Shown here in pieces: positions 10,987 to 39,599 of a stretch of 39,599 nucleotides of DNA. The position numbers were made by a program, and so were the translations under genes. The DNA comes from a virus: IMG/VR virus record IMGVR_UViG_3300047667_000742, positions 1 to 39,599 of that record; one strand, given 5' to 3'. The notes beneath the pieces are model-generated. The model worked only from the letters and a program-made list of their open reading frames with translations, did not search any database and had not been told where the DNA came from. Position 1 is the stretch's first letter. Each line of letters opens with the position of its first letter.

Positions 10987-11096
10987 TGTTAAACCCCTTT
11001 AAGGTTTGGCGGGCAGTTGCGCCCTAGGCCGTGTGCGTTATTGCTTGGCCTTGCATACACCTTACATATGCGGCCCGCATAAGCCAAGTAAAAACG

Positions 11097-11181
11097 GAGC
11101 AACATTATTGCGTTGTTTACCCTGTTGGCGCAACATTAATACGCGCAACATTGTTACCCGTTTGCGCAACATTATTGCGGG
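11097..11181. repeat. Iteron-like array, four copies of GCAACATT
   Basis: GCAACATTA/G begins at 11099, 11130, 11145 and 11166. Three copies are preceded by GC (GCGCAACATT), and two are followed by ATTGCG, making GCAACATTATTGCG partly palindromic. The array lies in a 386-base gap between 10987 and 11372. Direct repeats of this kind serve as initiator-protein sites at phage or plasmid origins, or as operator arrays. No initiator is identified. Confidence 0.5.
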
Positions 11182-11183
11182 AC

Positions 11184-11330
11184 CGTGTGGAGACCGAGAC
11201 CGAGAGAAAGAGAGACGGTTGGAGAGATGGAGATTCCGATGGACGGACTCGGCGAAAACGACGGACTCGCCGAAAAGAGGAGGAGGATGAAGAATGTATA
11301 AGAAGAAAAAGAAGAAGAAATCTAAATAGA
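11184..11330. other. Purine-rich tract with duplicated GGACTCGSCGAAAA words
   Basis: The plus strand is almost entirely A/G (runs of GAGA, GAGGAGGA, AAGAAGAAA). It contains two copies of a GACTCGSCGAAAA word at about 11236 and 11252, related to the 3' hairpin at 11333. On the minus transcript this is a long C/U-rich, G-poor stretch downstream of a hairpin, resembling a Rho-utilisation region. No gene is supported here. Confidence 0.4.
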
Positions 11331-11332
11331 GA

Positions 11333-11359
11333 CGCCGAATCAGACTAGCTGACTCGGCG
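11333..11359 (-). terminator. 3' hairpin copy 1 after the gene at 11373
   Basis: Arms CGCCGAATCAG and CTGACTCGGCG with a 5-base loop. In the minus transcript every position pairs (one G-U); in the plus transcript the same position is an A-C mismatch, so the minus strand is the functional one. UCUCUAUUUAGAUUUCUU follows the hairpin. Related copies are at 11764 and 12406. Confidence 0.6.
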
Positions 11360-11372
11360 AAAATCTTTCGTA

Positions 11373-11609
11373 TTAGGTGCCGTGTTGCACACAGATTTCT
11401 GTAAAGAGATCTGGCTCTCCACAAATGCCGCTGAGCACGTCTTCGTAAATGCCAAGCGCATCTTTTTCACTCATGGTCCACCGGTCCCAGTCAGTCATGG
11501 CCCCTTCGTTAAAGTACCAAGTGATATCGAAGGTTCCTTCTTCATTCTTGGCAACTTCTATAACGTCTTTCCCGTGGTTTGGCACTGGGCTTGTTTTGAT
11601 AATCTGCAT
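11373..11609 (-). CDS. Hypothetical protein of cassette 1
   Basis: 78 residues, acidic: HGKDVIEVAKNEEGTFDITW, then AMTDWDRWTMSEKDALGIYE. The pattern suggests an alpha/beta fold of 70-80 residues. It has its own promoter module (11644-11684), a leader shared base-for-base with the gene at 12216, ribosome site GGAGAAATAAA, and a 3' hairpin. It is thus a single-gene cassette. Family unknown. Confidence 0.7.
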   Translation of the reverse strand: MQIIKTSPVPNHGKDVIEVAKNEEGTFDITWYFNEGAMTDWDRWTMSEKDALGIYEDVLSGICGEPDLFTEICVQHGT

Positions 11610-31381: not shown

Positions 31382-31422
31382 ATACTAGCTGTTGAGGCGG
31401 CAATTGACAACCTCTAGTTATC
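31382..31422 (-). promoter_or_regulatory. Promoter module for the nuclease/HTH/primase operon
   Basis: GACAACCTCTAGTTATC at 31406-31422; on the minus strand TTGTCA, 17 bases, TAGTAT. The TAA stop of dCMP deaminase is inside the palindrome. Transcription should start only about 5-10 bases before the nuclease ATG ribosome site. Confidence 0.65.
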
Positions 31423-31876
31423 GGGGAATTGTTACCAGTTCTACACCGGATTCACTGAACATAGACTTAGATATTTCAATCTGTTCTGCCCATCTTTCAG
31501 CGTAATCACTGCTTAGATCTTGAGACACAACTCGCTTGATACCATGCTGAATAATCAACCCGCAACAGGAACAACAGGGGAATTCAGTGGTGTAGAGAGT
31601 GGCATCCTCGAACCCAAGAAGAGGTCGGTTTCGATGCATCATTCTCGCTGCTGCGATCAAAGCGTCTGCTTCTGCATGGATCACCCTTGGGTATTTTTGG
31701 GCACGATCGTTCAGTCGTTCATCGCTTTCTATTACTCCACTAGGAAATTGGTTCCAACCTATAGAGAACACAGCACCTTCAAGAACAACCACTGACCCTA
31801 CTTTAGTAGAAGGATCAGGACTTAATTTACTTGCATAGACAGCGTGATTCATAAACATTTTATCATCGATACTCAT
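31418..31876 (-). CDS. dCMP deaminase
   Basis: 152 residues. Zinc-dependent deaminase core: HAEA with catalytic H67 and E69, and PCCSC supplying C101 and C104, preceded by STKVGSVVVLEG and SIGWNQFPSGV. It converts dCMP to dUMP, the substrate of the ThyA-family enzyme at 36183. Start ATGA overlap with the exonuclease. Length normal for phage enzymes. High dUMP supply fits either dTMP synthesis or hydroxymethyl-dUMP synthesis. Confidence 0.92.
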   Translation of the reverse strand: MSIDDKMFMNHAVYASKLSPDPSTKVGSVVVLEGAVFSIGWNQFPSGVIESDERLNDRAQKYPRVIHAEADALIAAARMMHRNRPLLGFEDATLYTTEFPCCSCCGLIIQHGIKRVVSQDLSSDYAERWAEQIEISKSMFSESGVELVTIPR

Positions 31877-32412
31877 CGTTCAGTTACTCCATCTCTCATC
31901 ATGTAGGATTTGTAAACACACCGGACCTGATGTTTGCAGTCATCCAGAGCATAGTGGTAAATTCCTTTGCGGGGAATAGTCTTGGTGTTGAGACCAGCCA
32001 TGTCGTAGACAGTTCGCGTGTCGCGGGTATTATAGAACTGCCAAGGTGGTTTGACACCGACAAACTTACAAGACGCTTCCCACAAAACGCTATCAAAATT
32101 AGATCCTTGAGACCAAACAAACTTGAAGCGGTTTTCTTTCCAGAAATTGTTGAAACCATTGACAACAGTTTTCAGGTCCATTTGATTTGGTTCAAGAATT
32201 TCTTTAGCGGAGTCACCTTGAGAAGCCCACCATTTGATAGTAGCGGGATCTTTGAAAGCACCACAAGCAATCTGATCTTCTTCAGTAATGTTCTTGTAGA
32301 ACTCTGCGCCCAAACGAGGAGTTCTAGGATCAAAAGCGACAGCACCAATTGAACGGATGACGCACCCTGCTGAGGTGCCGTAGGTTTCGAGGTCTATCAT
32401 TACATGTTTCAA
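31873..32412 (-). CDS. DEDD-family 3'-5' exonuclease (Rv2179c-like)
   Basis: About 179 residues. MIDLETYGTSAGCVIRSIGA gives the first D-x-E, a Trp-rich KWWASQGDSA and SQGSNFDSVLWEASC the second Asp, and YHYALDDCKHQVRCV the third motif with D and H. This is the Rv2179c-like/DUF5051 branch. I take TTG 32412 as start because AAGGA lies seven bases before it and the previous stop is adjacent; ATG 32445 would overlap 32 bases. It may trim RNA or DNA ends during replication. Confidence 0.8.
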   Translation of the reverse strand: MKHVMIDLETYGTSAGCVIRSIGAVAFDPRTPRLGAEFYKNITEEDQIACGAFKDPATIKWWASQGDSAKEILEPNQMDLKTVVNGFNNFWKENRFKFVWSQGSNFDSVLWEASCKFVGVKPPWQFYNTRDTRTVYDMAGLNTKTIPRKGIYHYALDDCKHQVRCVYKSYMMRDGVTER

Positions 32413-32413
32413 G

Positions 32414-32713
32414 TTATGTTCCTTCGATATGTTGGTGGGAACCATCGGAGGCGATACCCCATTCCCGTTTGCGATTTATCACGAGTTTAGCTTCAACCTC
32501 TTTCATTAGGTCAAAGCCGTTCTTTTCGCAAATTTGAATTAGGAAAAAAGCCACGTCAGCACATTCTTCCCCAATAGATTTCTTTCCCATTCCATTAGAA
32601 ATAGTTGAAACAAGTTCAGCCATCTCTTTGTTACCGCGGATTGCGATTTTCAATTCAGGATTTACTCCGAATTGTTCTTCAGCCCAACCAAGGACCTGTT
32701 TCTGTAATGTCAT
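32414..32713 (-). CDS. MazG-like nucleotide pyrophosphohydrolase
   Basis: 99 residues from ATG 32713 (AAAGGGAAAGTT upstream). EMAELVSTISNGMGKKSIGE then ECADVAFFLIQICEKNGFDL and KLVINRKREWG match all-alpha NTP pyrophosphohydrolases: E-x-x-E-L, then E-E-C-A-D-V and K-x-x-x-N-x-x-R. They hydrolyse (d)NTPs to monophosphates. In phages they adjust nucleotide pools or reduce (p)ppGpp. It sits in the replication operon next to the polymerase. Confidence 0.85.
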   Translation of the reverse strand: MTLQKQVLGWAEEQFGVNPELKIAIRGNKEMAELVSTISNGMGKKSIGEECADVAFFLIQICEKNGFDLMKEVEAKLVINRKREWGIASDGSHQHIEGT

Positions 32714-32776
32714 AACTTTCCCTTTTTGATTCACTAATCCAGATCTAACATGACGCGAGCGCCGCAAAATTTTGGA

Positions 32777-32974
32777 TTATTGGTATTTATGTTTTAGATC
32801 GTGATATTTCTCGAGACCTTGGGAAATTCTCACGTGTTCATCGTATATTTTCTTAGCGGGAACAAATACATTTTCATATTCTTCCTGATCTTTAGCTGAT
32901 CTACAAAAAAGCCAAGCTCTTTTCTCCAGCTCTCTTTTTTCATGTTCTTCTCGCTGTTCATCATAATGTCCCAT
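32777..32974 (-). CDS. Small charged hypothetical protein
   Basis: 65 residues, highly charged and helical: HYDEQREEHEKRELEKRAWL, then FVPAKKIYDEHVRISQGLEK. Its ATG overlaps the polymerase stop (TAATG). A possible polymerase accessory, based only on position. Confidence 0.6.
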   Translation of the reverse strand: MGHYDEQREEHEKRELEKRAWLFCRSAKDQEEYENVFVPAKKIYDEHVRISQGLEKYHDLKHKYQ

Positions 32975-35049
32975 TATTTAATGCTTCCCCAGTTTGGTCC
33001 AGTTTCTGTGTCTACTTTGAATGGTACGAGAGGTCTGCACCGTTTCAACACACAATCCCTCATTATGTCACCGACAACTACAGCTTCTGCAACTGATCCG
33101 TAGCTACCGTCGGTCTCATCGTGAACCTGTAGTTGTAGATAGGCGTCAGTCTTGTCAATCTCTACCAAGGCAAGTTTAGTTTGATCTGCAGAGGAACCTT
33201 GAATAACTCTGTTCAAGGCTTTGTGAGTGTAGTCGTAGGAACCATCGTCTCGTTGTTCAAAATGAAGGTGCCTGTTAAATATCGTCTTGACGAAGCCCTT
33301 GGCTTCAGCCCTCGCTGACGCAGCTTTAGCCAATGCTCCAACAAAAGGGGCTTCCCTATCGAACTTATCCAATATCTCTTGTCCCTCTTCACCTGCCATC
33401 TCCTTATAATAACCCGTTCCCATATCCATGCGAGCTGACATCGCATCTTCTTTGCTATCGTGGTATTCAATGCGGCGTTTTTTACCCCATCCTGAGATAT
33501 GCGCCCAACGAGTAGGTTTGCCGATGTCCATGCAGAGTTTAGCTCCTCCTTCTCCGTAGCATAACCCAAGGTAAATAGCCTTAGAGAACCCTCGCTCTAG
33601 TTTGAATTGCTTTGGGCTTTGTGACATCCATTTATCGACAATGCTATCACCGTTAACGATACGAGTCATCATCTCGTGGTTGTCTGTGCTTGGGTCTTCA
33701 CGATAACGCTTTGCTGCATCTCTTGCTTTTGGGAAATCCATAAGCGCCGCAAAATGTGTCGTCCATCTGGGTTCTTGCTGGGAATAGTCATTACAACCCC
33801 AAATCGCTCCTTCTTCTGGTATGAAAATCTTCCTCCATTCTCCAGCGATTACAGGGTCTCGATCAGGGCTTGGTTGCTGTTGCAAGTTAGGATCGATCGC
33901 TGACAATCTACCATACCGAACTCCTTTTTGCTCACCGTTTTCTGTTTCGGCTGCAATCTGCTTAAACGAACAGTGGATTTTACCTTTCACAGCATACCTA
34001 CGAATGGATGCAGCGAAAGTTGTCCTGATCTTATTTACTTTGCGGGCATGAAGGATAGCGTTAGGGACAGGGTGGTCTGAACCTCCGAGCAGAGCTTTAT
34101 CAATCTGTGGTGCTCCGGTCGTAGTTTTATTGAGACGCATACCAATATCTTCAAGAGCAGGAGCGATGAGGTTTGGTTTCCAGATGTTGTCCAACCCAAT
34201 AGAAATACCTGTCTCTCTTTTGACAAGGTCTAACGCTTTCTTCTCTTCATCTAAGGCCCATTTCTCAATGGACTCTAGTTTTTCAAAATCAATCCGTACA
34301 CCACGACGTCGCATTCTTACGAGTACGGGGAGAACGTCTGTCTCAAGGTCCCATATCTCACGCAATCCCGCCGCCTCAATCTTCTTTTCTTGCATTCGTA
34401 GGATCTCAAGTGGTGAGGTAACATCTTGCTCACCATACGCTCCGACGAAACGGGCGGGTAAGCGCCATAGCCCTTTCTTTGCGTCAAGTCCGTGGGCTTT
34501 CGCAGCTTCAATAAGCAGAGTCTCATCTTTAGCATCGATGCCGTGACGTTTGCCAATGTTAGCGAGAGAATATGACCACTCAAGTTCATTGATGAGAGGA
34601 TCTGCGATTTGCACGTCTCTGAATTTAGCATCTCGATGCCATTCAAATCCGTCGTTGTATCCGTAGTCCACGTCGTATGCCAGATTTGCTCCAACGAATT
34701 CCCCTCGGTAATTTTTGATGTTATCTCTAAGGTATCGAAGGACTTCTGTTTCGTCCAGGTTATCACCGCCTTCATGTCGGAAAGGGAGATAATGTTTAGG
34801 TCCTCCATCAATAGCAAAGGCCCAGCCCACAGTATAACCGTCTCGCATCTGTCCGGTTCCCAGTCCAGCACTGATTGATGGGTCTCTTGTTTCAGCATCA
34901 ATAGCTATCCTTTTTGCACCAGCCCAAGAAGGAAGGTCAGAAATGGAAGGAGGTCTCCAGTCTGCCTTGGGCATAAACATTGACATCTGCAGCGGGGACT
35001 CTCCGCTATTCCTAGCTTTGGCTTCTTGTTGTTTAGTCTGTTTTGCCAT
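32974..35049 (-). CDS. Family A DNA polymerase with proofreading domain
   Basis: 691 residues. The 3'-5' exonuclease has AIDAETRDP (D51, E53), FVGANLAYDVDYG (about 118-130) and YGEQDVTSP. The polymerase has motif A NDYSQQEPRWTTHF (about 416), motif B RGFSKAIYLGLCYGEG (about 490), and motif C QVHDETD (about 643). No 5'-3' exonuclease domain is present, as in T7. The residue equivalent to E. coli Phe762 is Leu (K-A-I-Y-L), a replacement described in viral polymerases. It replicates the phage genome with the primase-helicase. Confidence 0.95.
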   Translation of the reverse strand: MAKQTKQQEAKARNSGESPLQMSMFMPKADWRPPSISDLPSWAGAKRIAIDAETRDPSISAGLGTGQMRDGYTVGWAFAIDGGPKHYLPFRHEGGDNLDETEVLRYLRDNIKNYRGEFVGANLAYDVDYGYNDGFEWHRDAKFRDVQIADPLINELEWSYSLANIGKRHGIDAKDETLLIEAAKAHGLDAKKGLWRLPARFVGAYGEQDVTSPLEILRMQEKKIEAAGLREIWDLETDVLPVLVRMRRRGVRIDFEKLESIEKWALDEEKKALDLVKRETGISIGLDNIWKPNLIAPALEDIGMRLNKTTTGAPQIDKALLGGSDHPVPNAILHARKVNKIRTTFAASIRRYAVKGKIHCSFKQIAAETENGEQKGVRYGRLSAIDPNLQQQPSPDRDPVIAGEWRKIFIPEEGAIWGCNDYSQQEPRWTTHFAALMDFPKARDAAKRYREDPSTDNHEMMTRIVNGDSIVDKWMSQSPKQFKLERGFSKAIYLGLCYGEGGAKLCMDIGKPTRWAHISGWGKKRRIEYHDSKEDAMSARMDMGTGYYKEMAGEEGQEILDKFDREAPFVGALAKAASARAEAKGFVKTIFNRHLHFEQRDDGSYDYTHKALNRVIQGSSADQTKLALVEIDKTDAYLQLQVHDETDGSYGSVAEAVVVGDIMRDCVLKRCRPLVPFKVDTETGPNWGSIK

Positions 35050-35630
35050 TAAAGATCACCTGGACAATAACCAAATAGGAACGGATGGTTAATACCGACG
35101 TCTGAGGACGTGCCAGATGCGGTGGGTTGGGTAGTGGTGCCACCAGCACGTCCGCTACCCCCTGTTTTTTGCCGCTGGGTGGCTGTTAGCGGTGCAAGGG
35201 GGCCAAGGGTGCTACCAGCATCTAACCTGCTCTGTACGGCGTCCATATGTGCACTGATTAAGCCAATCAAAACACTGAGGTCAGTATCTGTTCTCCATTG
35301 AGCAATACTTAGGCAGAGTTCGGCTTCTACATCTGGTACTTTTGCACTGTTCACGAAATCACAATACATTTCTTCAGCTTTGTCACAAGAGTTTTTGTAA
35401 GAATCAACATGAAGACATGTGTTAAGCCATCGACCATTCACATATCCTTCCTTAGCTTTGATCAAATAAGACCGAGCCTTATCTAAGTCTTCAAGGCCAT
35501 TTTTCTTGTACCAGCGAAAAGCATACTTAGAAGCCGCTGCCTCGAAATAACCGAGGTTGACGTCCATCGCCCAATCCCAGTGCTGATAAGCTGCGGCGTA
35601 GTGATTTCCACCTACTTGTGTAGAGTCCAT
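35049..35630 (-). CDS. DUF3310 protein with GC-rich low-complexity tail
   Basis: 193 residues. Residues 5-70 (GGNHYAAAYQHWDWAMDVNL, then YFEAAASKYAFRWYKKNG and LEDLDKARSYLIKA) match DUF3310, often labelled nucleotide-kinase-like without proof. From about residue 135 the sequence turns Gly/Thr/Pro-rich (TLGPLAPLTATQRQKTGGSG), encoded by DNA of high GC that shares words with other GC patches here. That tail looks inserted. It lies between HD hydrolase and polymerase. Confidence 0.8.
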   Translation of the reverse strand: MDSTQVGGNHYAAAYQHWDWAMDVNLGYFEAAASKYAFRWYKKNGLEDLDKARSYLIKAKEGYVNGRWLNTCLHVDSYKNSCDKAEEMYCDFVNSAKVPDVEAELCLSIAQWRTDTDLSVLIGLISAHMDAVQSRLDAGSTLGPLAPLTATQRQKTGGSGRAGGTTTQPTASGTSSDVGINHPFLFGYCPGDL

Positions 35631-35631
35631 C

Positions 35632-36183
35632 TTAAGCTCCTTCCATATCTGGCATTGAAAACCAGTTATCTTCTTTGATCAAGTAAAATGCGTTCACAAC
35701 TTCAACAGCATACAAGTGAGAGCTCTTCAGTATTGACTCTTCAACTCGTTTCAGCTTAGGAGAAATTGCCATGTTACCAGACATAACCTCATCTTTGAGA
35801 TAGCAGTAGTATTCCAGCGTATCTAAGCCTTTGAACCACTTGTAATCTTCATCACTTAGAGAAACTTCTTCATGAGAACCAAACATCTCTACATTGATTT
35901 GGAGTTCAGTGTCTTCTTGAGCGGCGTTGTGCTGGATACCTCTTTTCTTCGCTGGGCTTGGCATGTCGCCTGTGATGCGCTCTGCAAGGTCGTGCTTGAT
36001 GCAAGCTAGAATAAGATCACGGGAAGCTTTCGGGTGAAGGATCAACAACATAGTAACCATGTTGAAGCTGTGAAGCCCAACAGAGTCACAGATATTACCA
36101 GAGCTTGAATGTGATCTCACGACGTTAGCTGCTTCCCGAGCAAACTTAATTCGCTTGACGTTGTCTGAGAAATAGTAATCCAT
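35632..36183 (-). CDS. HD-domain phosphohydrolase (YfbR-like)
   Basis: 183 residues from ATG 36183, which overlaps the ThyA stop as TAATG with GGAGG upstream. VGLHSFNMVTMLLILHP gives the first His, LACIKHDLAERITGDMPSP the H-D pair, and LDTLEYYCYLK the last Asp, the HD fold of 5'-deoxynucleotidases such as YfbR. It could dephosphorylate unwanted dNMPs. Its tight coupling to ThyA suggests removal of competing nucleotides such as dTMP if hmdUMP is used. Confidence 0.85.
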   Translation of the reverse strand: MDYYFSDNVKRIKFAREAANVVRSHSSSGNICDSVGLHSFNMVTMLLILHPKASRDLILACIKHDLAERITGDMPSPAKKRGIQHNAAQEDTELQINVEMFGSHEEVSLSDEDYKWFKGLDTLEYYCYLKDEVMSGNMAISPKLKRVEESILKSSHLYAVEVVNAFYLIKEDNWFSMPDMEGA

Positions 36184-37211
36184 TATGCCCTCCGCCCCAG
36201 CCACTCGATACAAGCCTTCTGCCAATCAGTAGCGGCGATGTTCTCCGCTGATGCGATTGCCATTTCAATACGATCAGGATTGCTTTTATCTTTCCACTTC
36301 TCCCACGATAGCATCATAGGAACTGCAACTCGCTTGAAGAATGGATCAGTGTAGCCCATCACATTTGCCCCATCATCCATGAACATAGATAGTTCACTGA
36401 ACCATGTATCAATAGGAGAGTTAACAATGTTGAATGGTTTCACGTTATCGAGCTCGTAATCAGTGAACCCAGCAGACTGAGACAACAAAGGCTCTACTTT
36501 TTTCAGTGTTTCGAGATAGGCGTGGAAGTTGGTGCTGATCTGCCAGTAACGCCCAACAGGAACACCAATCCAAGAAGCCATAACTTCTTGCATGAACGAC
36601 ATGTGAACAGCGTTGGCCCCATAGGCTCCCCAGATCATATCGTTACTGCGATTGAACACAGTCATATCAAGATGACCAGCCACGTTGATACGAAACGTGA
36701 TGATCAAGTTGCAGGGAAAGTCTTTGCCATCAAGACCAAGATCTGCGTGAGCATCCCACATTTGCAGAACAGTGCGACGGTCGTCAGGGTTTTTCTTGAG
36801 AAGATCAGCGATGGTAGATAGTTGATCCAAAACACCAATTTCTCTGCTGATACCATCAGGCATTTGTTCGTATTCCGCAAAATGGTTCCGCCAGCGATAA
36901 CCGTAGGCTCCATGGAAGTTGACTCCATCGTCAGTATAGTTAGCCATGCCATTGTTGAAGCGACTGATCCATTCAACGTCGCGACGACCCGCCATCATCC
37001 AGAGGCATTCCATGAAGTGGAAGAACGGATTGCAGTCACGTTCAGGAAGGAACATAACTCTTTCTCTTGGGCGTTCATAGACAGTTGTCACTGGCTCGGG
37101 CATCACTTTCACTGGGCCATTACGGCTGTCTCGCTGAACACCAGTTTCATTGATCATATCAACGCCCAACAGAAGGGCCTCTTCTACGTTTCTCGCTCTA
37201 ACAATATGCAT
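36183..37211 (-). CDS. ThyA-family enzyme: thymidylate synthase or dUMP hydroxymethylase
   Basis: 342 residues. DRRTVLQMWD precedes the catalytic DFPCNLIITF (Cys about 168); VFNRSNDMIWGAYGANAVHM binds dUMP with the Asn that selects uracil over cytosine; YWQISTNFHAYLE holds the ribose/phosphate contacts. The N-terminal 50 residues contain VYERPRERVMFLPERDCNPF, a phage-type extension. In ThyA the Cys is followed by His (PCH); here it is PCN, a change seen in hydroxymethylase-type relatives, though not proof. Neighbours suggest hmdU synthesis. Confidence 0.85.
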   Translation of the reverse strand: MHIVRARNVEEALLLGVDMINETGVQRDSRNGPVKVMPEPVTTVYERPRERVMFLPERDCNPFFHFMECLWMMAGRRDVEWISRFNNGMANYTDDGVNFHGAYGYRWRNHFAEYEQMPDGISREIGVLDQLSTIADLLKKNPDDRRTVLQMWDAHADLGLDGKDFPCNLIITFRINVAGHLDMTVFNRSNDMIWGAYGANAVHMSFMQEVMASWIGVPVGRYWQISTNFHAYLETLKKVEPLLSQSAGFTDYELDNVKPFNIVNSPIDTWFSELSMFMDDGANVMGYTDPFFKRVAVPMMLSWEKWKDKSNPDRIEMAIASAENIAATDWQKACIEWLGRRA

Positions 37212-38482
37212 TATAGTAGTACTCCAAAGTGGTTAAACAGTTGATCTTCAACTTTTGTTTTCATTGCTTGCGTCGCAGTTCCCTGGACTGCTTCTGTCTC
37301 GCAATTCCCATTTGCAAGATCGATCACACGTTGAGCCACCGTTTTCCGTTCAAACAATGGCAGAAGTTCTTGGTTCGCCTCTATCATAGGTTGGGCTGTC
37401 TTGATAGATTGGTTTCCAGTTTCCAGAACGATTTCAGCATACTCTTGGGCATCAGCATTTTCTGGAATGGCGATGTAGTGTTCACCAGCTTGGAACAACT
37501 CAGAACCCATGCCTTTTTGACGAGCGACAACCACGCAGCCTCGAATCATCGCATCTACAACTACGCGGTTAAAGTGACCGCCAACCTTAGAATAATTGTT
37601 TGACCAGGATGGATCAACAAGCACTCGAGATTCACCGAGATAATTGTCAACTTCAGTTTTGTCCCAGTAATCATGGTGGGTCATACCATTGTCGACAGCG
37701 GAGTCCCAGAACTTTGTTCCATTATCGTGGAAATAAGCGTCTTTGCACTTTTCCTCGCTGGTCATGTAGCGATACTCGATGCCCAAGCCAGCGACTTCAC
37801 GCATCTCATCCGCTTCTTTGCTGGGCATATAGCGGATAGCTTCAACTAGCTCATGAGCATGTTTCCACGCTTTGAAAGTTTGCATGTTTACAAAACCACG
37901 AGATTTCCAATCCCATCTAGCATAAGGACGAACAGGATTTTCTTGTGGGTTTAAGATCAATGCTCGTGGGACGTCCGCAAAGGCTGCACCGTTGAGGGCG
38001 CAAGGATGAACACAGGCAAGGCCAGAAAGTTTATCCTGAATAGCCAGCAGATGTCCTGCCCCTTTCACTGCGTTACCGTCGTGAACAAACGCAATTTGTT
38101 TGGTGGTAGATGGAAGATCATACAATTCAGGCCAGTCATCGTTACCTAGATTGTCTTGGTTTTTGCTTGGAACAGGCATGGTCCAGATGATGAGGTCATA
38201 CCCACTAAGAATTTGTTTCGCACCACTAAGGTGAGCTCCACCGCGATAAGGGATGCGATTTGTTTTTGAAAAGTTCCAGCCTTTACCTTGATGATGAGGG
38301 ATACCGCTTGGTCCGAAAGACCAGTCTGCAGTTTTGCGTTGGTCTGGTGCTTGGAACGACCATACGAGTTCTTTAAGCTGAACTGTGTGACCTAGTTCTT
38401 TAAGACCACCAATCAATTGTTCGGTGTGATCGATAATACCACCGAGGTCCATGCACTTGTGAAGTGCGACTAATATCTTCAT
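37211..38482 (-). CDS. GT-B glycosyltransferase (GT4-like)
   Basis: 423 residues from ATG 38482 (GGAG upstream); the longer frame starts inside the promoter. The N-terminal KILVALHKCMDLGGIIDHTE is the first Rossmann strand and Gly loop. C-terminal SRVLVDPSWSNNYSKVGGHF, VVVDAMIRGCVVVARQKGMG and SELFQAGEHYIAI form the sugar-nucleotide site of GT-B enzymes. It shares a transcription unit with ThyA and the HD enzyme. It could glycosylate a modified base or a virion component; base modification is favoured by context. Confidence 0.82.
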   Translation of the reverse strand: MKILVALHKCMDLGGIIDHTEQLIGGLKELGHTVQLKELVWSFQAPDQRKTADWSFGPSGIPHHQGKGWNFSKTNRIPYRGGAHLSGAKQILSGYDLIIWTMPVPSKNQDNLGNDDWPELYDLPSTTKQIAFVHDGNAVKGAGHLLAIQDKLSGLACVHPCALNGAAFADVPRALILNPQENPVRPYARWDWKSRGFVNMQTFKAWKHAHELVEAIRYMPSKEADEMREVAGLGIEYRYMTSEEKCKDAYFHDNGTKFWDSAVDNGMTHHDYWDKTEVDNYLGESRVLVDPSWSNNYSKVGGHFNRVVVDAMIRGCVVVARQKGMGSELFQAGEHYIAIPENADAQEYAEIVLETGNQSIKTAQPMIEANQELLPLFERKTVAQRVIDLANGNCETEAVQGTATQAMKTKVEDQLFNHFGVLL

Positions 38483-38513
38483 TTGGGTTGTCTCCAACAG
38501 GTTATGTTTAACC

Positions 38514-38554
38514 ACCATAGCGGCAGAGGGCGCAAAAGACAAGTGCTAGTTGTC
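38514..38554 (-). promoter_or_regulatory. Promoter module for the glycosyltransferase-ThyA-HD operon
   Basis: GACAAGTGCTAGTTGTC at 38538-38554; on the minus strand TTGTCT, 17 bases, TATGGT. Confidence 0.65.
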
Positions 38555-38567
38555 GCCCTCTTCCAGA

Positions 38568-39473
38568 TTATTTAGGTGCTTTGTACCGAGACCTTGGTCG
38601 TCCTTGGCCCAAACGGACACGCTCATACTTGTCAAACTCACAAAGTTGGAACTGCACATCGTGAAGGCACATCTCGATATCTGGAATGAATTTGTCACGC
38701 TCAAACCATAGCTTCCAGATAACAGAGAACGCTTGATCTTCTTTCAGAGGTTTAGCAGTTTCGTCCCCGAGTGCACGAGCCGCACCACGTCTTGCTCCTG
38801 GACCAATAGGCGTCCAATCATTCCAGTCAGTTGGGAAAGAGAAACTTCCGTCGGGACCACCAACATCAGGTTCATTCCAGAAATTAGTGTAAGTAGTATC
38901 TAGTAAGATCTCTTTGGTCATGAAGCCAGAGCCACCGAAGCCATTGATCTTCCGCATCTCAGTGGCAACTTTCTCCCAGCTTTGAGTTTCCTTAGCTATC
39001 TGGCACAGGAAAACAGTTTTCTTTTGAAGAGCCTTGAGGAAATAATCAACTACTACTTCTTGTTTTGGAGCAGAGATACCTTGGTTCGTGATAACATAGG
39101 CACCGGTGAAGACTCGCTGTTTGTTTGCTAGCCGGTCTTGAGCAAGTTCTTTGACTTTATCCCAATGACCTTCGTGCATATCATCGAAGTTTGTCCACCC
39201 TACACACTCTGCAAATTCGTATGTTCCAAAATAACGGAACGTCGCAGCATTCATAAGAATAGTTGCAGGATCAGCATCGAATTTGGAAGTGTAGAACAAC
39301 CCACGGAGGACGTTGCTGGTTCGGTCATGATGTCTATGAACATTGGTGAATTTGTAATCCCTCAAGATCTGGTCTTCAGTCCAGGGAAATGGCAAATCCG
39401 CCAGCTTTCGCAGGCGGATCTGTTCGCGTTCCTCAACAAAGCTGAAGAACGCTTGTGTCTGAAATTCAGACAT
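38568..39473 (-). CDS. Putative thymine hypermodification enzyme (HMUDK_hel / aGPT-Pplase-like)
   Basis: 301 residues. EEREQIRLRKLADLPFPWTE then DQILRDYKFTNVHRHHDRTS (residues 14-53) is the signature I recall for the helical HMUDK_hel/alpha-glutamyl-putrescinyl-thymine-pyrophosphorylase clade: E-R-x-x-I-x-x-R-K, P-x-P-W-T-x-D-x-I-L, F-x-N-V-x-R, D-R-T. The C-terminal third has GPGARRGAARALGD and a basic end. In known phages these proteins replace activated hydroxymethyl on 5-hmdU in DNA. It neighbours ThyA and a glycosyltransferase. It has no visible P-loop kinase. Confidence 0.7.
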   Translation of the reverse strand: MSEFQTQAFFSFVEEREQIRLRKLADLPFPWTEDQILRDYKFTNVHRHHDRTSNVLRGLFYTSKFDADPATILMNAATFRYFGTYEFAECVGWTNFDDMHEGHWDKVKELAQDRLANKQRVFTGAYVITNQGISAPKQEVVVDYFLKALQKKTVFLCQIAKETQSWEKVATEMRKINGFGGSGFMTKEILLDTTYTNFWNEPDVGGPDGSFSFPTDWNDWTPIGPGARRGAARALGDETAKPLKEDQAFSVIWKLWFERDKFIPDIEMCLHDVQFQLCEFDKYERVRLGQGRPRSRYKAPK

Positions 39474-39599
39474 TATTCAGCAGCAGCTTTCGCAGCTTCT
39501 TTTTCAGCTTTCGCATCAGCCTTGGCTTTGACAGCAGCTTCACGCTCGGCGATTTTCGCAAGTTTCGCAGCTTCGCGTTCTGTTTTCTTGACAGCAGCA
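39473..39599 (-). CDS. C-terminal end of an Ala/Lys/Glu-rich protein
   Basis: The final 41 codons of a gene entering from the right edge, ending TAA at 39473-39475 with a TAATG overlap. The visible part is a charged Ala-rich helix (KKTEREAAKLAKIAEREAAV then KAKADAKAEKEAAKAAAE). It could be the flexible basic tail of a DNA-binding or structural protein. The main domain is outside the window. Confidence 0.6.
   Translation of the reverse strand, partial: AAVKKTEREAAKLAKIAEREAAVKAKADAKAEKEAAKAAAE

Follow-up and report, generated by a model that had tools for sequence, protein, structure and literature searches.

The virus record IMGVR_UViG_3300047667_000742 is a linear sequence of 39,599 bases without tRNAs, a fragment of a phage genome that is referred to below as the window. 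It encodes a cassette that is predicted to make glycosylated 5-hydroxymethyldeoxyuridine (5-hmdU) in DNA. All open reading frames (ORFs) named here were verified at their coordinates and lie on the minus strand, in the order hel (an HMUDK_hel family protein), glycosyltransferase (GT), ThyA homolog, HD phosphohydrolase, DUF3310 protein and family A DNA polymerase (PolA) and then, with other genes in between, dCMP deaminase and primase. The first three genes carry most of the argument:

38568..39473, minus strand: HMUDK_hel (PF18723) protein of 301 aa without a P-loop domain, proposed 5-hmdU-DNA recognition subunit (profile, homology and structural model; the role is predicted)
37211..38542, minus strand: GT-B glycosyltransferase of 443 aa (423 aa from the probable ATG start), proposed 5-hmdU DNA glycosyltransferase (Pfam, structural model and dN/dS)
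36183..37211, minus strand: ThyA-family protein of the phage M6 type with a PCN motif, proposed dUMP hydroxymethylase (identity to M6, YuA and MP1412; phrog_5131; alignment)

The hel protein matches the PF18723 profile over residues 6-288 with 120.6 bits, against a curated cut-off of 25 (E=1.1e-34), which supports the initial annotation of 38568-39473 as HMUDK_hel/aGPT-Pplase-like. It is homologous to SN1_020 of Sphaerotilus phage SN1, labeled aGPT-Pplase1, the literature name of HMUDK_hel. This is the sole domain detected in the protein; no Walker A motif or P-loop kinase domain was found within its 301 aa, and by itself the HMUDK_hel protein is, judging by its sequence, not a kinase. Sequence comparison with the PDB yielded chance matches only. 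The best structural match of the hel model (predicted local distance difference test score, pLDDT, 86.7) is gp46 of phage PaMx11 (VIA Z 10.1, 224 residues, root mean square deviation 4.2), also known as PUGT, a 5-phosphomethyl-dU glycinyltransferase; next come many helix-hairpin-helix DNA glycosylases (VIA Z 7.7-9.2), and Foldseek gives no significant match. The likeness of the fold to gp46 and these glycosylases is suggestive only. The ratio of nonsynonymous to synonymous substitution rates (dN/dS) of hel is 0.12-0.17. No fusion of hel with a transferase in a single ORF was found among the loci examined, and in two of them (L012:7981-9744 and L013:5129-6250) the hel ORF is considerably extended at the N-terminus, to total lengths of 587 and 373 aa, respectively.

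The GT matches Glycos_transf_1 (E=1.7e-6; 28.1 bits against a cut-off of 26.4), and its model (pLDDT 84.9; 343 Foldseek matches at E up to 0.001) appears as a clear GT-B enzyme, bearing out the initial call. All top five VIA matches of the model are T4 DNA alpha-glucosyltransferase (AGT), including complexes with DNA that contains 5-hydroxymethyluracil (Z 23.6-24.5); other GT4 enzymes follow ~1 unit lower. Membership in the sequence family of T4 AGT was rejected because Pfam searches at E up to 1 return general Glycos_transf_1-type models only, and membership in TAGT was rejected because a PF20691 match is absent for this GT. Searches of the annotated phages of INPHARED (E up to 0.01) and of GTDB genomes and prophages gave no match. 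The GT ORF shares one base with the ThyA ORF. At the other end, most relatives start at an ATG ('MKI') that aligns with residue 21 of the ORF in the window, so the true start is probably the ATG at 38482 rather than the TTG at 38542. With a dN/dS of 0.07-0.08, the GT is under purifying selection.

The ThyA homolog is ~51% identical over its full length (341 residues) to the counterparts in Pseudomonas phages M6, YuA and MP1412, which supports the initial reading of a ThyA homolog that serves 5-hmdU, and matches Thymidylat_synt with 80.7 bits and phrog_5131 with E=7.9e-126. M6 DNA contains 5-(2-aminoethyl)deoxyuridine (5-NedU), which is made from 5-hmdU (PMC6449724). The replacement of PCH by PCN that had been noticed initially is real (residues 166-168) and recurs in Bhz59, PaMx11 and the M6-type phage SN1; all 13 aligned phage sequences, two of which are only 27-29% identical, have this Asn. 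Among solved structures, CMP 5-hydroxymethylases come closest, followed by thymidylate synthases, and the NCBIfam thymidylate synthase equivalogs score far under their own cut-offs. An Asn of the ThyA homolog aligns with the uracil-binding Asn of E. coli thymidylate synthase, which argues for dUMP rather than dCMP as the predicted substrate.

A search of IMG/VR with the GT of the window yielded 26 loci, and hel, GT and ThyA are adjacent in all loci with this GT other than those truncated at a contig end. HMUDK_hel and ThyA are each found in 25/26 GT records, and each miss is at a contig edge. Distant GTs of 35-41% identity (L181, L183-L187; mostly ~40 kb contigs) likewise adjoin hel and ThyA, and the order is GT-hel-ThyA in six non-redundant GT loci. 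Because the adjacency holds in every uncut locus and the GT is under purifying selection, the association of the three genes is, in our reading of these genomes, beyond chance. The ~40 kb contigs L181 and L183-L186 combine a very divergent polymerase with the same GT, hel and ThyA in GT-hel-ThyA order, which suggests that the cassette has moved between phage lineages.

The initial annotation considered glycosylated or amino-substituted thymine and suggested that a missing 5-hmdU DNA kinase may be encoded past the right edge of the window. This region can be read in the relatives: G019 shows ~90% nucleotide identity to the window, which bridges its contig ends, so that G019 is near-complete and reveals the content missing from the window, and four others (G003, G004, G015 and G022) end in direct repeats of 91-127 bp; these five are the complete relatives below. 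In G019, the genes directly upstream of hel encode, to judge from their sequences, a ribonucleotide reductase and helicases as well as a 254-aa protein. A tblastn search of the window and nine relatives found no homologs of the kinase, radical SAM (rSAM), pyridoxal phosphate (PLP), aGPT-Pplase2, Nmad5, flavin adenine dinucleotide (FAD) or acetyltransferase proteins of SN1 and PaMx11, and profile searches for the same set with filters off found no homolog at E below 1e-3, the best kinase value (0.008) belonging to a 441-aa, helicase-sized protein. Proteins of at least 100 aa with a Walker A pattern in the window, G019, G015 and G022 are, as judged from the sequence, terminase, helicase and chance matches. 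A P-loop 5-hmdU DNA kinase adjoining hel is thus absent from the window and from the complete relatives, and the expectation of one beyond the edge is not borne out. The same is true of the amino-substituted alternative, for which aGPT-Pplase2, PLP, rSAM and FAD enzymes are absent from the complete relatives; the glycosylated alternative stands, as a prediction from the gene content. The pathway appears to involve glycosylation only, with no kinase step.

The gene between hel and ThyA differs among loci, being a GT-B of the type in the window in one set and a ~260-aa PF20691 TAGT/phrog_842 protein in another; TAGT proteins form a family of T-even phage DNA glucosyltransferases (PMC13216743, PMC13390438). 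Other genes in this slot encode SPASM radical SAM proteins, FkbM methyltransferases and a nucleotide-sugar epimerase, of which the latter two are fitting for predicted sugar chemistry. FkbM, SPASM radical SAM and epimerase genes are found in or near the hel cassette at L098:8939-9658, L098:9577-10659, L097:8898-9848, G018:40919-41641 and G022:20842-21552, and in some phages the sugar may be further decorated.

Two scans with the hel profile yielded ~160 loci. We surveyed hel partners in 174 loci, with labels assigned from profiles within 6 kb of hel, and counted 72 TAGT, 43 GT-B, 40 kinase, 5 GT4b (another GT) and 14 without a partner; after removal of near-copies at 95% identity, 134 non-redundant loci remain (TAGT, 47; GT-B, 35; P-loop kinase, 36; GT4b, 3; none, 13). 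Two partner kinds occur together in 0/174 loci, so that kinase and GT are never found side by side, every partner is encoded on the hel strand, and aGPT-Pplase2 (29), PLP (13) and FAD (8) are found only alongside the kinase. The tree of hel proteins (122 sequences) requires the partner to have changed at least 16 times, compared to 58.9 with shuffled labels, and the well-supported branches force at least 5 changes for GT-B, at least 6 for TAGT and at least 3 for the kinase. Hel proteins share 25 residues that are conserved to at least 90% in each of three groups (kinase, GT-B and TAGT partners), and no residue splits the kinase group from the GT-B group. Given these shared residues, the lack of a separating one and the partner changes, hel proteins of one kind seem to work with transferases of different chemistry. 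The commonest arrangement among the collected loci is hel-TAGT-ThyA without a kinase (L140, L142, L154 and ~30 similar), in which TAGT would act on 5-hmdU and not on 5-hydroxymethylcytosine (5-hmC).

We consider it probable that the window carries a minimal, kinase-free cassette for glycosylated 5-hydroxymethyluracil DNA. A broader proposal, to which we attach about even weight for and against, is that HMUDK_hel is a general base-flipping subunit that recognizes 5-hmdU in DNA and works with an interchangeable catalytic partner, that phages have repeatedly swapped the kinase for glycosyltransferases of unrelated families, and that in this lineage hel and the GT-B form a two-protein enzyme for making base-J-like glycosyl-5-hmdU DNA.

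The remaining genes of the cassette are:

35632..36225, minus strand: HD phosphohydrolase, proposed from position and family to deplete dTTP/dTMP (HD_3 9.3e-7; same place as SN1_016 and PaMx11_52)
35049..35630, minus strand: DUF3310-containing protein, not a kinase (PF11753 E=2.1e-4)
32974..35049, minus strand: M6-type family A DNA polymerase, proposed to build 5-hmdUTP into DNA (DNA_pol_A 1.2e-35; 47% identical to the SN1 polymerase)
32414..32767, minus strand: MazG-like protein (weak call), possible dNTP pyrophosphohydrolase (Pfam 0.023; phrog_9147 1.6e-14)
31418..31876, minus strand: dCMP deaminase, proposed to supply dUMP (PF00383 3.4e-19; phrog_174 5.4e-37)

The HD hydrolase and dCMP deaminase genes named in the initial annotation are thus present, and its MazG-like call is weak. 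An Rv2179c-like exonuclease is encoded together with the MazG-like protein, dCMP deaminase and primase. The DUF3310 gene was considered as a hidden kinase and rejected: the PHROG 'nucleotide kinase' matches span the DUF3310 part only, and Walker A is absent. The DpoZ model and a DatZ-like PHROG match, itself weak, hinted at a 2-aminoadenine (Z) genome, which was also rejected, the DpoZ score being 251 bits against a cut-off of 500 and PolA belonging to the M6 type; no search aimed at PurZ was made. The HD hydrolase shares 90% identity with that of L002 and only 39% with those of L003 and L020, despite identities of 88-97% to the window for hel, GT, ThyA and polymerase of the latter two loci, and we read the HD gene as a local replacement within the cassette. 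Elsewhere in the window, positions 11031-11424 are a purine-rich low-complexity stretch in which one strand translates to charged repeats (EEEDEE, RKRR) and the other to poly-Phe.

Under the proposed mechanism, dCMP deaminase would supply part of the dUMP, the M6-type ThyA homolog would convert it to 5-hydroxymethyl-dUMP, and host kinases would convert this to 5-hmdUTP, which the phage PolA would build into DNA, with dTTP being depleted by the HD and MazG-like enzymes. Once the DNA is replicated, hel would recognize, and probably flip out, 5-hmdU in DNA, and the GT-B enzyme would move a sugar from a host nucleotide sugar, most likely UDP-glucose, onto the hydroxymethyl group of 5-hmdU. The product would be a base-J-like glycosyl-5-hmdU, made without a phosphorylated intermediate, with the GT occupying the place of the 5-hmdU DNA kinase and downstream enzymes of M6-like phages. 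We infer glycosylation, each catalytic activity, the donor sugar, the linkage and the role of hel. The beta-glucosyltransferase of T4 is known to glucosylate 5-hmdU in DNA, yielding base J (PMC4111573). Because AlkA and Mug, which excise 5-hmdU, do not act on base-J DNA (PMC6449724), the sugar would protect the phage from host repair enzymes as well as from restriction.

Several observations weigh against such a product. Hydroxymethylases and thymidylate synthases are not reliably told apart by sequence alone (PMC5977210); GT-B folds are common, with other GT4 enzymes within ~1-2 Z of T4 AGT; the fold match of hel is weak; the M6-like phages searched also carry an Nmad5 gene; and 13/134 loci, several of them at contig ends, have no identified partner, the partner labels being profiles within 6 kb. 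The label of the ThyA homolog in both PHROG and Pfam, thymidylate synthase, would suit an ordinary enzyme of that kind and DNA with normal T, but its nearest relatives are the ThyA homologs of the 5-hmdU-using phage M6, its closest solved structures are CMP 5-hydroxymethylases, and it combines the PCN motif with constant pairing with HMUDK_hel, which leaves this explanation hardly credible. HMUDK_hel takes its name from the 5-hmdU DNA kinase and adjoins a P-loop kinase in M6-type phages, and a fragment such as the window leaves room for genes outside; a classical amino-hypermodification of the M6/ViI type, with kinase and amino-acid transferase outside the window and the GT as an extra decoration, is nevertheless very unlikely, given that homologs of the kinase, aGPT-Pplase2, PLP, rSAM, FAD and acetyltransferase proteins are absent from the four relatives with terminal repeats and from the ~90% identical fifth, and that kinase and GT never co-occur across the 174 loci.

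The two other alternatives concern the roles of hel and GT. That hel is itself a catalytic base-modifier, like gp46/PUGT, and that the GT acts on its product or independently, is suggested by its best structural match, gp46 (Z 10.1); however, gp46 acts on a phosphorylated base and the kinase is absent here, and the same conserved residues with each of three partner kinds suit one shared role, such that we consider a catalytic hel unlikely. The GT might, instead, modify a non-DNA target, such as a host surface glycan or a phage structural protein, its place in the cassette being incidental and the DNA carrying plain 5-hmdU: the GT4-type fold is common to many surface-polysaccharide enzymes, and phages often carry such GTs. 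We regard this as quite unlikely because the adjacency to hel and ThyA is kept over 35-97% GT identity and two gene orders, the same slot is filled in other loci by TAGT, a family of DNA glycosyltransferases (PMC13216743), and the top VIA match is a DNA base glucosyltransferase.

The kinase-free glycosyl cassette can be compared with several known systems. M6 and SN1 (Mesyanzhinovviridae, Yuavirus) share with the window a ThyA-type hydroxymethylase, HMUDK_hel, HD, PolA, dCMP deaminase and primase in the same order, the full order in SN1 being aGPT-Pplase2, PLP, rSAM, kinase, aGPT-Pplase1 (the HMUDK_hel homolog), Nmad5, ThyA, HD, two small genes, PolA, dCMP deaminase and primase. Unlike these phages, the window lacks the P-loop kinase, rSAM, PLP, aGPT-Pplase2 and Nmad5, and GT-B sits between hel and ThyA. 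The same hel-ThyA-HD-PolA-dCMP deaminase-primase backbone is found in PaMx11 (46, FAD oxidoreductase, acetyltransferase, the P-loop protein 49, hel, ThyA, HD, other genes, PolA, dCMP deaminase, other genes, primase), where the kinase, the gp46/PUGT glycinyltransferase, FAD oxidoreductase and acetyltransferase form a kinase-dependent amino modification cassette; the window is without those tailoring enzymes. By gene content, the window shares the SN1/PaMx11 backbone, with the modification block cut down to hel and GT.

In pelagiphages, a GT labeled beta-glucosyl-HMC-alpha-glucosyltransferase lies near a thymidylate synthase (TS) and aG/PT-PPlase1 (PMC9599517), so that a hydroxymethylase-like TS and HMUDK_hel are likewise combined with a glycosyltransferase, with no kinase reported. 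By its label, this GT goes with the TAGT/phrog_842 loci, a family distinct from the GT-B of the window, and hel as a subunit with swappable partners was not proposed in that paper. The TAGT branch of the hel-GT association was thus already seen in pelagiphages; for the GT-B branch, the missing kinase, partner exclusion and repeated swapping, no description was found in the literature searched, with many journals outside the coverage. T4 AGT resembles the GT in its GT-B fold (Z 24.5) and in acting on a 5-hydroxymethyl pyrimidine in DNA, whereas it acts on 5-hmC, needs no hel partner and has no sequence-profile match to the GT of the window. The predicted product is the same as, or closely similar to, kinetoplastid base J (beta-glucosyl-5-hmdU), which is made by a hydroxylase and the glucosyltransferase JGT; there, however, T is hydroxylated in DNA after replication, whereas here 5-hmdU would arise as a nucleotide and then be incorporated, and the enzymes are unrelated by the evidence at hand. 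Bacillus phage SP-15, which contains glucosylated dihydroxypentyl-uracil (PMC5977210), is another phage with a glycosylated modified thymine but differs in the base and in a teichuronic-acid-like gene cluster that is absent here.

If these proposals are true, the cassettes might provide new enzymes for labeling 5-hmdU in DNA, and new targets would be predicted for modification-dependent defenses, such as GmrSD/BrxU enzymes and Brig-type glycosylases. A swappable hel partner would allow the sugar or amino chemistry of a phage to be predicted from its sequence, HMUDK_hel would serve as a module for targeting and not belong to a kinase, and phages would make a base-J-like base by a kinase-free route.

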